Origin: a virus
Length of the DNA: 26,519 nt
Strand: one strand, 5' to 3'
Virus record (IMG/VR): IMGVR_UViG_3300035670_001099
Coordinates: 1-26,519 of that record
The translations under genes were made by a program, and so were the position numbers. Numbering within the stretch: position 1 is the stretch's first letter; the number at the start of each line of letters is the position of its first letter. The notes under the pieces are model-generated. The model saw only the letters and a list, made by a program, of their open reading frames with translations, was not told where the DNA came from and did not search any database. Below, one piece after another: positions 10,061-26,519 of this stretch.

Positions 10061-10387
10061 ATGGCTTTCATTCTTAAGAAGACTGCTTCGTACAAATGGC
10101 CTGTGACAGTGGAAGTCCCTGTCGATGGTGGCAAATTTGAAAAGCAAACGTTCGATGCAGTCTTCAAGAAGATGAGTCGTTCTGCCTTCAATGATCTGAT
10201 TGACAAAGGCGATGATGTCTTGGTTGATGGGATCCTTGAAGGTTGGGACGGTGTCAAGGATGAAGAAGGCAAGGACATTGCATTCACGCAGAAGGCCAAG
10301 AAAGAGATCTGCGACGATCCCTATGTGATGCGTGCGTTGATTCAAGCGTATGCCGACAGCGTGACTGGAGCGCCAGCAAAAAACTAA
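10061..10387 (+). CDS. Tail assembly chaperone (lambda gpG-like)
   Basis: A 108-aa protein with a beta-rich N-terminus (ILKKTASYKWPVTVEVPVDG) and a helical, charged C-terminus (FKKMSRSAFNDLIDKGDDVL; ICDDPYVMRALIQAYADSV). This is the usual form of the first tail chaperone: it coats the tape measure and recruits tube protein. It lies between tail tube and tape measure as gpG does. Its last sense codons sit on a canonical slippery heptamer (10378-10384), so some ribosomes should continue into the next frame and make a gpGT-like 221-aa form. Start ATG 10061 follows the tube gene by 5 nt. Confidence 0.85.
   Translation: MAFILKKTASYKWPVTVEVPVDGGKFEKQTFDAVFKKMSRSAFNDLIDKGDDVLVDGILEGWDGVKDEEGKDIAFTQKAKKEICDDPYVMRALIQAYADSVTGAPAKN
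10378..10384 (+). promoter_or_regulatory. -1 ribosomal frameshift site A-AAA-AAC
   Basis: The heptamer A AAA AAC is in the correct phase: codons Lys107 (10379-10381) and Asn108 (10382-10384) are directly followed by the TAA stop at 10385. A -1 slip resumes at CTA 10384 and opens a 113-codon frame. The G/GT pair of lambda uses the same mechanism with GGGAAAG. Confidence 0.85.
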
Positions 10388-10725
10388 AAGTTGCCGCTGA
10401 GTATTGGGCGAAAGGCGGCGTTGTTGATGAACGTGAAACCGACCTGAAGGCTCTTGGTGCTAGCGAGGAACAGCTTGCCGCCTTAAGGTTGGAGAGTGTT
10501 GAGAAAGATTGCGAGGTGTGGGAGGAGAATTGGGATGTGCTGAATATGTTTATTCGTCTGTCAACGCAATGGCACACGAGCATGGCCGGATTGACGGGAT
10601 TGAACTACCAGAGTTTGGAATGGCTATGTAAGCTGTATGCAGTCAAGGATCCTGTGGCCATGTTTGAAGGCGTGCAGGTAATGGAGATGGCTGCCCTGTC
10701 CGTCTTGAACAAGAGGAAGAAATGA
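10384..10725 (+). CDS. Tail chaperone C-terminal extension (gpT-like, by frameshift)
   Basis: A 113-codon frame with no ATG or GTG in its first 35 codons, joined to the gpG-like protein by the -1 shift to give about 221 aa. The sequence after the junction (KLKVAAEYWAKGGVVDERET) runs into a helical region with WEENWDVLNMFIRLSTQW and AGLTGLNYQSLEWLCK, the W..W..F..L.TQW...G..GL.Y pattern of the DUF1799 family known as the downstream tail-chaperone part. The T part is thought to contact tube subunits while G binds the tape measure. A TTG at 10489 could start a shorter frame, but it would cut away clearly coding sequence. The stop overlaps the tape-measure start (ATGA). Confidence 0.82.
   Translation, partial: LKVAAEYWAKGGVVDERETDLKALGASEEQLAALRLESVEKDCEVWEENWDVLNMFIRLSTQWHTSMAGLTGLNYQSLEWLCKLYAVKDPVAMFEGVQVMEMAALSVLNKRKK
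10393..10419 (+). promoter_or_regulatory. Stem-loop downstream of slippery site
   Basis: GCCGC (10393-10397) can pair with GCGGC (10415-10419), with a G-U pair on each side (10392/10420 and 10398/10414). The spacer from the heptamer is 8 nt, in the usual range for a frameshift-stimulating structure. The loop is long (about 15 nt), so a pseudoknot is possible but I have not identified one. Confidence 0.5.
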
Positions 10726-24234: not shown

Positions 24235-24372
24235 ATGGACCCCACCACCGTTGCCTCTCTTGCGATCCTGGTCGCTGCTGGCTCTGAAATCATTGCCCTG
24301 CTGCCAATCCGCGAAAATTCGTGGGTACAGCTTCTGGTTAAAGTGCTGAAGCTCGTCTTCCCAAAGCGCTGA
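24235..24372 (+). CDS. Small hydrophobic protein, holin candidate
   Basis: A 45-aa protein: MDPTTVASLAILVAAGSEII, ALLPIRENSWVQLLVKVLKL, VFPKR. The first 24 residues form a hydrophobic segment and the rest an amphipathic helix. I recall very similar short proteins (start MDPTT/MESTT, middle LLPI..NSW.QL, end FPKR) from cyanophage genomes, always small and unassigned. Its position before the endolysin makes it a holin candidate. Its last codons form a C-CCA-AAG heptamer just before the stop, which could feed ribosomes into the following frame (see separate entry). Start ATG 24235 lacks a clear Shine-Dalgarno. Confidence 0.6.
   Translation: MDPTTVASLAILVAAGSEIIALLPIRENSWVQLLVKVLKLVFPKR
24360..24366 (+). 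promoter_or_regulatory. Possible second -1 slippery heptamer C-CCA-AAG
   Basis: CCCAAAG lies in the correct phase (TTC-CCA-AAG-CGC-TGA) at the end of the small membrane protein. A -1 slip continues as GCG CTG AAC into a coding frame that has no ATG, GTG or TTG until 24465. I see no strong stem at 5-9 nt. Candidate only. Confidence 0.35.
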
Positions 24373-24665
24373 ACGACAAGACGACATGGCTGTGGCGTTA
24401 TCAGAGCCGCGACTGGCGGCATGATTTACAGCGTGCTGCGCAGGAACACAAGTTTCACGCGACGTTGACGCCACTGCTCGATTGTGAGATTGATCGTGTC
24501 AACAAGGTCATTGATCTTGAAGATGAGCGATCAAAGCGTCGTCCTGTCGTGATTCATGAAGACGTCACACCAGAGCAGACGGGTGACAGTCGTCTTTTAG
24601 GTGGGCCAATGTCAATCTCTTCCCCTTGGAACGATGAAAACCCAGAACCGCCTGAAGCTGGTTGA
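24369..24665 (+). CDS. Charged protein of unknown function, start unresolved
   Basis: The frame is open from 24342 and reads as real protein from about 24372: NDKTTWLWRYQSRDWRHDLQ, RAAQEHKFHATLTPLLDCEI, DRVNKVIDLEDERSKRRPVV, IHEDVTPEQ, with a Pro/Glu-rich end. There is no ATG, GTG or TTG before TTG 24465, and starting there would drop the Trp/Arg-rich part. Options: a CTG at 24369 overlapping the previous stop (CTGA; the coordinate given here), a -1 frameshift from the membrane protein at 24360-24366 (fusion of about 143 aa), or the short TTG form. It overlaps the endolysin start by 32 nt. Function unknown; its place suggests lysis or a late accessory role. Confidence 0.5.
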   Translation: MNDKTTWLWRYQSRDWRHDLQRAAQEHKFHATLTPLLDCEIDRVNKVIDLEDERSKRRPVVIHEDVTPEQTGDSRLLGGPMSISSPWNDENPEPPEAG

Positions 24666-25656
24666 TCTGTTCAAATATTACAAAGCGTTACCGCATCAAA
24701 CTGCGGCGATCTTTGAGTTGGAAGCAGAGTTGTTGAAGGAATGCCCTGATTTGTTGAATAGGGATCAGGAGTGGTTCAAGACCTGGTCGCAGGCTGGCAA
24801 GCAAGATGTTTTTGATAACAATTGGGTTGGCGTTGTTGCGGCGGCAAAGAAAGCTGGTGCGAAATTCCCTGAGCTTGTTGCAGCGCAGTGGGCTCTTGAG
24901 TCTGGCTTTGGCAAGCATGTATCAGGTGAGCACAATTATTTTGGACTGAAGGGCACGGGCACCAGTCGTAACACGAAAGAATATGTGAACGGCAGGTGGA
25001 TCACGATACTTGATTCGTTCCTGGACTTCCCCGACCTTGAGACCTGCGTGTTCTACCTGGTGGAGCGCTGGTACAAGGATTACAACATATACAAGGGTTG
25101 CAATAACGCTGCAACACGTGAGGACGCTGCTCGATGGCTGGTCAAAGAGGATTATGCGACGGACCCTGCCTATGCGGACAAATTGATCAAGCTGATGAAT
25201 GAACAGGAGCCCGTGAACAAGCCAAAACCATCTGCTGGGTTTACACCTAATAAACCGTTTGATTACAAAATCACGCCAAACATTGCCTATGGCGAGCTTG
25301 CGTTACACGACAATAAGCGGCGTTTTGTTAATCAATCTCAATGTGACACCGCTGTTGAGCTTTGCGTATTCCTTGAGAAGGTGCGTGCAAGGTTTGGCAA
25401 CAAGCCGATTGTGATCACAAGTGGGTATCGCCCCCCTGCTGTCAATGCTGCTGTTGGCGGTGCTGCTAATTCAGAGCATTTGTACAACAAACCTGACACG
25501 GGCGCTGTGGACTTCTGGGTGAAAGACGTGGACATCTACAAGGTGCAAGAGTATTGTGATCAGACCTGGCCGTGCAGCGTTGGTTACGGGGCCAAGAAAG
25601 GCTTTGTGCACCTCGGCATGCGTCAAGGTCGTCCTCGTGTCCGTTGGGATTACTGA
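24634..25656 (+). CDS. Endolysin: glucosaminidase + M15 peptidase
   Basis: A 340-aa two-domain wall hydrolase that releases progeny. Residues about 5-55 (LVDLFKYYKALPHQTAAIFE) are a small helical region also known from cyanophage and cyanobacterial lysozymes. About 62-190 is a GH73/FlgJ-type glucosaminidase with the likely catalytic Glu89 in AAQWALESGFGKH, followed by GEHNYFGLKGTG. About 205-340 is a Peptidase_M15-type D,D/D,L-carboxypeptidase with zinc ligands His282 (NSEH), Asp293 (GAVDFW) and His326 (GFVHLGMR), plus ITSGYRPPAVN. Both active sites look complete. There is no signal peptide, so export needs a holin. ATG 24634 is preferred, since the upstream GTG at 24601 adds 11 residues of no recognisable character. 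Confidence 0.92.
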   Translation: MKTQNRLKLVDLFKYYKALPHQTAAIFELEAELLKECPDLLNRDQEWFKTWSQAGKQDVFDNNWVGVVAAAKKAGAKFPELVAAQWALESGFGKHVSGEHNYFGLKGTGTSRNTKEYVNGRWITILDSFLDFPDLETCVFYLVERWYKDYNIYKGCNNAATREDAARWLVKEDYATDPAYADKLIKLMNEQEPVNKPKPSAGFTPNKPFDYKITPNIAYGELALHDNKRRFVNQSQCDTAVELCVFLEKVRARFGNKPIVITSGYRPPAVNAAVGGAANSEHLYNKPDTGAVDFWVKDVDIYKVQEYCDQTWPCSVGYGAKKGFVHLGMRQGRPRVRWDY

Positions 25657-26180
25657 TGTCCGTCTTGTGTGATTGGCAAATTCGCAAGCTCTGCCAAAAC
25701 CATGCAATGGTCACTCCGTTCATGGAGGAGCTGTTGAATCCTGCATCATTGGACGTAAGGCTTGGCTATCACTTGATGGTTGAGCGGCCCATGGACATGG
25801 ATCTTGAGCTTCTTGACCTGACTGGATACAGCGCACAGGACCCGTACTGGCTGCGCCCTGGTGAGTTTGTGCTGGCGGAGACGATCGAGACATTCAATCT
25901 GCCTGAAAGCGTTTGCGGTCAGTTTGCGCTCAAGAGCAGCAGGGCACGCGCTGGCTATAGTCACATGCTGGCAGGCTGGTGCGACCCCGGCTGGCATGGG
26001 TCTAGGTTGACACTAGAACTGCAAAATGCACGCAAGATGCATTCACTACCCCTTTATCCTGGATTAAAAATTGGACAGATAATTTTCTTTGAAATGAGTG
26101 AAGAACCAGACGTCAGTTACGCCAAGGTCGGTCATTACAACAACGACAGTAAAGTATCAGCTTCTAAAGTTCATCCCTGA
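25656..26180 (+). CDS. dcd: dCTP deaminase family protein
   Basis: A 174-aa enzyme of the trimeric dUTPase/dCTP deaminase fold, expected to convert dCTP to dUTP (or dUMP in bifunctional forms) for thymidylate supply during phage replication. Family motifs: LLNPASLDVRLG (27-37), RPGEFVLAETIETFNLPE (67-84), KSSRARAG (93-100), AGWCDPGWHGSRLTLELQN (106-124) and LYPGLKIGQIIFF (133-145). Glu121 matches the catalytic Glu of the family. Lys93 replaces the usual Arg of the RSS motif. ATG 25656 overlaps the endolysin stop (TGATG). It is unusual to find this enzyme at the end of a late structural operon; it may be expressed late or also from another signal. It converges with, and overlaps by 17 nt, the HNH gene. 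Confidence 0.9.
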   Translation: MSVLCDWQIRKLCQNHAMVTPFMEELLNPASLDVRLGYHLMVERPMDMDLELLDLTGYSAQDPYWLRPGEFVLAETIETFNLPESVCGQFALKSSRARAGYSHMLAGWCDPGWHGSRLTLELQNARKMHSLPLYPGLKIGQIIFFEMSEEPDVSYAKVGHYNNDSKVSASKVHP

Positions 26181-26188
26181 ACTGATAC
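26154..26188. terminator. Bipartite hairpin at the convergent gene ends
   Basis: GTATCA (26154-26159) pairs with TGATAC (26183-26188), and inside it GTTCA (26169-26173) pairs with TGAAC (26178-26182) around a 4-nt TCCC loop; a 9-nt bulge lies on the left. It covers the 17-nt overlap of the two 3' ends, where a two-way terminator would be useful. There is no T-tract on either strand, so intrinsic termination is uncertain. Confidence 0.3.
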
Positions 26189-26478
26189 AGCCACTGCCAG
26201 ATCTCAATTTCACGTTCGATTGAGTAAAATTGCTGCTGCCTATACCAGAGAGTCCACTCTGTTGAACTCTTAGATCCGTTGCAGCGCAGGCAAGCTGGGA
26301 CAAGATTCTCTACAATCGTTTGCCCACCGCGATGCCTTGGGATGACGTGATCAAGCGACTTTGCGTGCTCACCGCAGTATGCACAATTGCTGCCAAAAGC
26401 TTCAAAGATCTTTAACCTGAATTGCGCCCTTGTTTCTCTCTTTGGAATCAGACTGGTCTCGTCGATCCAAGAGTGCAT
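26164..26478 (-). CDS. HNH endonuclease
   Basis: A 104-aa HNH nuclease on the opposite strand to everything else. Zinc-binding CxxC pairs are Cys32-Cys35 (NCAYCGEH) and Cys63-Cys66 (ACLRCNGSKS). The active-site ββα-Me motif has Asp43-His44 (LDHVIPRHRGG), Asn58 (ENLVPAC) and Asn67. The C-terminus is helical with many Trp/Tyr/Glu residues (IEREIEIWQWLYQF). Start ATG at 26478 (complement) is chosen because AGGGAG stands 6 nt upstream; a TTG at 26499 would add 7 residues but leave that Shine-Dalgarno inside the gene. It could be a free-standing homing-type nuclease or an HK97 gp74-like packaging helper, since HNH genes often lie near cos/terminase and this one lies at the far end from the terminase genes. 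Confidence 0.88.
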   Translation of the reverse strand: MHSWIDETSLIPKRETRAQFRLKIFEAFGSNCAYCGEHAKSLDHVIPRHRGGQTIVENLVPACLRCNGSKSSTEWTLWYRQQQFYSIEREIEIWQWLYQFRDEL

Positions 26479-26484
26479 GACGCG

Positions 26485-26490
26485 CTCCCT
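26485..26490 (-). promoter_or_regulatory. Shine-Dalgarno of HNH gene
   Basis: AGGGAG on the - strand (CTCCCT on +), 6 nt before the ATG at 26478. It is one of the strongest ribosome-binding sites in the window and decides the start in favour of this ATG. Confidence 0.7.
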
Positions 26491-26519
26491 GTTGCGCAAA
26501 TCCTAGGCAAGATTTTGAA

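Follow-up and report, generated by a model that had tools for sequence, protein, structure and literature searches.

The locus described here raises the question of how a conserved, charged protein is expressed from a reading frame that follows directly on a small membrane gene and lacks a usable start codon. The window, i.e., the whole stretch of DNA that was analysed, comes from IMG/VR as a virus record 26,519 bases long, and its portal, terminase, tape measure and tail tip genes are of the lambda type; the features considered below are given in Table 1. We propose from the sequences compared, with a probability of roughly 0.92, that the charged extension is made by programmed -1 ribosomal frameshifting, because an in-phase slippery heptamer is conserved, the -1 frame is under selection, and a usable start is absent in many members of the family.

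Reading frames at the membrane gene

The original prediction described a holin-like ORF ending at TGA 24370-24372 and a -1 frame that is open from 24342 and has no ATG, GTG or TTG for more than 30 codons. Both descriptions proved accurate: the membrane ORF begins at ATG 24235 and encodes 45 aa, and the -1 frame runs to 24665, the first of these codons being TTG 24465, 31 codons beyond the 0-frame stop. The membrane ORF finishes in frame 0 with GTC TTC CCA AAG CGC TGA, and therefore the predicted XXXYYYZ heptamer, C_CCA_AAG, is in the correct phase, with its CCA codon three codons before the stop instead of the four originally counted. The predicted trans-frame product of 44 + 99 = 143 aa agrees with the size first estimated. 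In the window, the -1 extension comprises the charged domain with its terminal QTGDSRLLGGPMSISSPW and then a short tail, and past 24601 it shares sequence with the endolysin ORF. The likely endolysin ATG 24634, which lies inside the -1 ORF, is preferred over GTG 24601 by family comparison (26 nt before the domain stop).

According to the proposed mechanism, some of the ribosomes on the 45-aa ORF would terminate at TGA 24370, and others would move back by one base on C_CCA_AAG and translate 99 further codons. Two proteins would arise from one gene in a set ratio, the short holin-like one and a form of 143 aa with the same N-terminus and membrane segment plus a charged C-terminal domain, predicted to consist of a long helix and a conserved end of the LLGG.MSI.APW type. 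A sequencing error at the junction, by which a normal start could have been lost, is rejected because five further IMG/VR contigs have the identical layout (domain protein identity 96-98%), and all homologues speak against it as well. Upstream in the same cassette lies a second small membrane gene, for whose 76-aa product there was no PHROG or Pfam match; its counterpart by position in S-CBS1 has a weak match to a PHROG annotated as hemolysin (E=0.0024).

Table 1. Features of the window discussed in the text
Feature	Coordinates	Strand	Basis
Small membrane and probable coiled-coil protein, 76 aa	23980..24210	+	ORF; one of two small membrane genes in the cassette
Small holin-like membrane protein, 45 aa, 0-frame product	24235..24372	+	ATG to TGA ORF
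Slippery heptamer C_CCA_AAG, in phase	24360..24366	+	Frame-0 codon reading
0-frame stop TGA	24370..24372	+	CCA codon begins three codons earlier
Predicted -1 frame extension, 99 codons past the shift, TGA 24663-24665	24366..24665	+	Selection, long-helix model
Endolysin, glucosaminidase and peptidase M15	24634..25656	+	Pfam PF01832 and PF08291
HNH endonuclease-like ORF (CAYCGEHAKSLDHVIPRHRGG) at the window end	26164-26499	-	Read from translation

The slippery heptamer in relatives

Relatives were collected from two directions, and the domain and the S-CBS3 membrane protein served as queries that led to the named phages; the membrane protein of the window itself gave no tblastn match in phages, and its S-CBS3 version did. 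The first set used an alignment of the membrane protein as the query and was blind to the domain. Among the best 80 of its 395 relatives, the -1 domain is present in 39, all with the heptamer (39/39), two more loci are cut inside the extension and both have the heptamer, and the remaining 39 are domain-less, with the heptamer in 13. The second set used the domain alignment and was blind to the membrane gene. Among the best 80 of 231, a script found the membrane ORF in 77; the domain lies in the -1 frame in every one of these, and 76 have the heptamer; three rows have no junction count, two of which are cut (L141, L160) and one of which (L177) has A_AAA_AAG, read by eye. The only domain-bearing exception, L173, reads GGG AAA AAG CTC TGA, where the heptamer is imperfect and the A_AAG tetramer is kept. 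Altogether, an in-phase X_XXA_AAR within the last seven codons is found in 129 of the 130 loci bearing the membrane ORF and the -1 charged domain, which supports the frameshift reading, as do the later held-out loci (69/69); the search sets behind the 130 overlap and share some contigs, so that only the cluster counts given below are free of repeats. Of 175 membrane ORFs, 128 have the domain, in every case in the -1 frame and in none in +1 or 0, and no in-frame fusion of the two was found. TTCCCAAAG is invariant in a 34-sequence alignment.

Seven named phages combine the membrane ORF, the heptamer and the -1 domain, i.e., S-CBS1, S-CBS3, S-EIVl, KBS-S-2A and the Autographiviridae 7B11-B, WH11-B and S-B28. 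Their -1 frames all finish in a variant of (M/I)SI.(A/S)PW, and the heptamer is A_AAA_AAG in six of the seven and G_GGA_AAG in S-EIVl. Six named loci (MedDCM-OCT-S37-C6, a Microviridae genome, S-CBS4, S-SRP01, DSL-LC07 and S-CBP1) have a related membrane ORF and lack both the heptamer and the -1 domain. Two variations of the junction were also seen. In L151 and L154, CCA AAG has become CCA CGG and G_GGA_AAG stands just downstream (CCA CGG GGA AAG), i.e., the slippery site has moved. In L147 and L172, a different membrane segment (SEALSLYPG.RANGIIQ) sits on the same heptamer and domain, which looks like an exchange of modules close to the slippery site.

When the loci are clustered at 90% identity across the junction, the heptamer is present in 65/65 domain-bearing clusters, compared with 10.6 expected under synonymous shuffling with codons drawn from the family's own usage, and in 4/22 domain-less clusters, compared with 3.1 expected; the 65/65 hides L173, because this locus clusters at 90% with heptamer-bearing members, and the 22 also count the six named loci (L010 and L014-L018), of which several are distant. 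Fisher's exact test gave P = 1.7e-14 on the table (64/64 and 5/23) that preceded one reassignment: the first classification was made by a regular expression, and L067 was moved by hand to the domain-bearing group after its -1 frame had been read. Two further loci (L062, L015) were added by hand. Since the clusters are related to each other, the P and expectation values are descriptive. By this comparison of sequences, the heptamer is conserved more strongly than the encoded amino acids would require. The domain-less relatives offer a natural control, as they often retain Pro-Lys but encode it as CCC, CCT or CCG followed by AAG. Four domain-less clusters do have a heptamer, those of L037, L080 and L084, where it begins 16 nt ahead of the stop, and the L078 group; with 3.1 expected, these could be chance occurrences or relics. 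In L078, L079, L081 and L082 the heptamer is retained, and the -1 tail is an Arg-rich stretch of only 25 codons with no conserved domain.

A held-out set was chosen later with more distant membrane proteins as queries, and the best 80 of 414 gave 78 new loci after L194 and L228 had been dropped as repeats of S-B28 and MedDCM-OCT-S37-C6. The domain is present in 69, with A_AAA_AAG in 69/69, and the nine domain-less loci, labelled as such by eye, have no heptamer (0/9); L216 and L232, which are cut inside the domain, are tallied as domain-bearing. At the level of non-redundant clusters, the heptamer is found in 25/25, compared with 4.3 expected. The codon before AAA AAG in these clusters encodes Ala, Pro, Gly, Thr, Ser, Glu or Val, and its third base is always A. 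The held-out domain-less loci encode Pro-Lys-Lys as CCA AAG AAA or CCA AAG AAG, which is non-slippery in that phase. The 65 and 25 clusters belong to two sets that were not clustered against each other; together they form a natural library of slippery sites for studies of recoding in cyanobacteria.

Only three heptamers occur among the 65 clusters, C_CCA_AAG in 42, A_AAA_AAG in 21 and G_GGA_AAG in 2. According to a systematic study in E. coli, these three are the most efficient in the presence of stimulators, C_CCA_AAG reaching 54% with the IS3 pseudoknot, and the rates without a stimulator are far lower (PMC4066793); as the data are from E. coli, the rate in cyanobacteria may differ. Upstream Shine-Dalgarno-like pairing near the heptamer was not above the null. 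Downstream folding is weak (mean z -1.23 over 80 nt compared with -0.54 in the control, and -0.16 over 50 nt), and no conserved structure after the site was well supported by RNAalifold on 34 sequences (10 pairs, -3.1 kcal/mol). The lack of a clear stimulator speaks against the frameshift, as do the imperfect site in L173 and the heptamers of the four domain-less clusters; a stimulatory element, whether upstream Shine-Dalgarno-like or a downstream structure, is not obligatory for programmed -1 frameshift genes.

The heptamer data also bear on transcriptional slippage, in which RNA polymerase would stutter on a run of A and the mixed mRNAs would join the two frames. A_AAA_AAG does provide six A in a row in 21/65 clusters, but 42/65 have CCCAAAG, and slippage is rejected because this sequence has only three-base runs; moreover, the site always has the same phase relative to the 0 frame, a constraint that slippage by RNA polymerase would not impose. 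The probability of this explanation is negligible.

Selection on the extension and the question of a separate start

In 34 aligned representatives, the first 24 codons past the stop have a dN/dS of 0.155 and no stops in the -1 frame, and the same codons give 1.7 and 249 stop cells in the 0 frame and 2.0 and 957 stop cells in the +1 frame. Differences at codon positions 1/2/3 number 2852/2119/6557 in the codons that precede any possible start. The purifying selection and the position bias indicate that the -1 frame is read as protein directly from the stop. The domain comprises 52-98 residues with a mean net charge of -3.2 and is conserved at its C-terminal end. Its structural model, of modest confidence (pLDDT 69.8), is a long helix followed by a short strand pair. 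A fold search with this model found nothing significant, the best match being F4YCM9 (103 aa, E=0.036). F4YCM9 is equal in length to S-CBS2 gp048.

The charged protein could instead be a separate product, translated by reinitiation at a codon that overlaps the stop (CTGA, TTGA, GTGA), and a CTG start had been named at the outset as the main rival. Reinitiation is possible in the 50/65 clusters whose overlap codon is CTG (40), TTG (9) or GTG (1), and S-CBS2 has a GTG in TAGTG without the heptamer. A CTG or other overlap start nevertheless cannot be the general explanation, because the overlap codon is GTA in 8, CTA in 4 and TTA in 3 clusters (15/65) and the domain is still present there; the same holds for five of the 25 held-out clusters (CTA 3, GTA 1, TTA 1, alongside CTG 19 and TTG 1). 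To our knowledge, GTA, CTA and TTA do not serve as bacterial start codons. A separate start would also leave unexplained why the heptamer is so far in excess of its expected number in the domain-bearing clusters, and we regard this alternative as highly improbable. The original prediction had proposed to check whether the second frame of homologous loci is always -1 and start-less: the frame is always -1, but the start-less part fails as a universal rule, since in some members a TTG or GTG coincides with the overlap or follows it within a few codons.

Homologues with a start of their own had been foreseen as evidence against frameshifting, and separately started charged genes do exist, albeit in distant relatives. 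S-CBS2 gp049/gp048, S-CRES1 gp105/gp104 and S-CRES3 gp116/gp115 resemble the present locus in having a membrane gene and then a charged gene with a similar C-terminal end, but differ in that the charged gene has its own start, GTG in S-CBS2 (L019) and ATG in S-CRES1 (L184) and S-CRES3 (L183). At the sequence level the S-CBS2 charged protein shows weak homology to the domain of this family (tblastn E 0.5 to 3). In T4-like cyanophages the charged protein stands alone with normal starts, and the homology is again weak; these phages were considered as a source of fused proteins and ruled out on account of this stand-alone arrangement. If the genes are truly homologous, the domain can act as a separate protein and the frameshift would be the way in which one lineage ties it to the membrane.

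Putative role in lysis and relation to known systems

The family averages describe a membrane protein with one hydrophobic stretch followed by a positively charged tail. The mean charge flanking the hydrophobic segment is -1.05 on the N side and +4.03 on the C side, and the C side exceeds the N side in 65/65 clusters. Since the C side is the more positive, the positive-inside rule places the C-terminus, and with it the charged domain, probably in the cytoplasm. The tethering of the domain to the membrane segment, as originally proposed, fits this picture, with the cytoplasmic side as the predicted one. The long form could also be a spanin-like or other envelope protein with a periplasmic domain, an alternative that concerns the role and leaves the frameshift as it is. 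Its N-terminal membrane segment and long helix recall inner-membrane spanins, which are of about the same size as the 143-aa form, and Foldseek gave one very weak Rz-like match (E=7.3). The flanking charges, however, predict N-out, C-in in 65/65 clusters, the opposite of the N-in, C-out orientation of spanins (Rz). Although this orientation is a prediction, it makes a spanin-like role quite improbable.

A holin-like role of the short protein is suggested by its small size and its position next to the endolysin gene, or next to the small terminase gene in T7-like cyanophages. The endolysin ORF adjoins the membrane ORF in the window. An endolysin motif lies downstream in 44/65 domain-bearing clusters, as scored by a home-made pattern that misses some types, and 12 of the 17 motif-less loci examined have an ORF that, judged by eye, resembles an endolysin or a lysozyme. 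S-B28 and WH11-B have the small terminase as their next annotated gene, beside which the holin gp17.5 is located in T7. The membrane protein of the window matches PHROG 22542 (E=1.2e-6), and no named holin family was matched, as Pfam gave nothing and PHROG 22542 and PHROG 15106 are both of unknown function. On gene position and membrane topology, we consider the short protein somewhat more probably a holin than another kind of membrane protein.

By analogy with antiholin-type isoforms, we tentatively suggest that the long form might tune the timing of lysis, with odds a little short of even. A more speculative version is that the frameshift ratio itself would set this timing, a fixed share of the holins carrying a cytoplasmic domain that delays or schedules hole formation. 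If this were true, the slip rate and its modifiers, such as Lys-tRNA modification and the growth state of the host, would be part of the lysis clock. The shift might be real and yet serve mainly translational coupling, ribosomes that cross the endolysin start raising endolysin translation; this is compatible with frameshifting and would agree with a next ORF that starts 26 nt before the domain stop in 33/65 clusters and with several domain-less relatives in which the endolysin ORF begins at the membrane-gene stop. We consider it unlikely to be the main role, as the protein sequence of the domain is itself conserved, with the low dN/dS given above, and the arrangement is also seen in phages in which a small terminase follows (S-B28, WH11-B) or the next gene is in the opposite orientation (S-EIVl).

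Extended isoforms made by -1 frameshifting are well known from tail chaperones and IS transposases. The candidate site resembles lambda G/GT, whose heptamer is G_GGA_AAG, in that a phage -1 heptamer near the end of a first ORF gives a second product extended at its C-terminus, and S-EIVl, L151 and L154 use this same heptamer; it differs in lying in a small membrane protein of the lysis region and not in a tail chaperone upstream of the tape measure gene. The window has a second -1 candidate of the known lambda G/GT-like kind at 10061-10725, a tail assembly chaperone (PF08748) whose TAA directly follows an in-phase A_AAA_AAC (10378-10384) and whose -1 frame remains open up to 10725, a short way upstream of the tape measure gene.

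Transposases of the IS1 and IS3 families have the same X_XXA_AAG class of heptamer in overlapping ORFs (PMC4066793); they are another class of genes, and some have known stimulators, whereas none was found here. Dual-start holins (lambda S; SPP1 24.1/24.1* and 26/26*) likewise give two related membrane isoforms from one gene, the longer lambda S form being described as an antiholin in PMC6316719, but these isoforms vary at the N-terminus through two starts, and here a large C-terminal domain would be added by frameshifting. Frameshifting has been proposed for expression of the MS2 lysis gene (PMC10885494, citing Kastelein 1982); there the shifted ribosome would reach the lysis start and make no fusion protein, and the genes are unrelated. 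The documented SPP1 frameshifts are in tail genes, and the word "holin" is absent from the examined text of PMC10885494 and PMC5009743. No report of frameshifting in a holin-like gene or in this cyanophage gene was found in the literature searched. We know of no example of -1 recoding in the holin-like class; the present reading would place it in a new class of genes and spread it over siphovirus-type cyanophages and T7-like Autographiviridae. The locus could serve as a cheap and direct test of how two holin-like isoforms are made at a fixed ratio.

Existing annotations miss or truncate the predicted second product. The deposited S-CBS3 gp22 (L006 2004-2216, internal ATG) and S-CBS1 gp23 (L007 1935-2102, internal TTG) begin inside it and hide the frameshift, and the greater part of it carries no annotation in S-B28 and KBS-S-2A.
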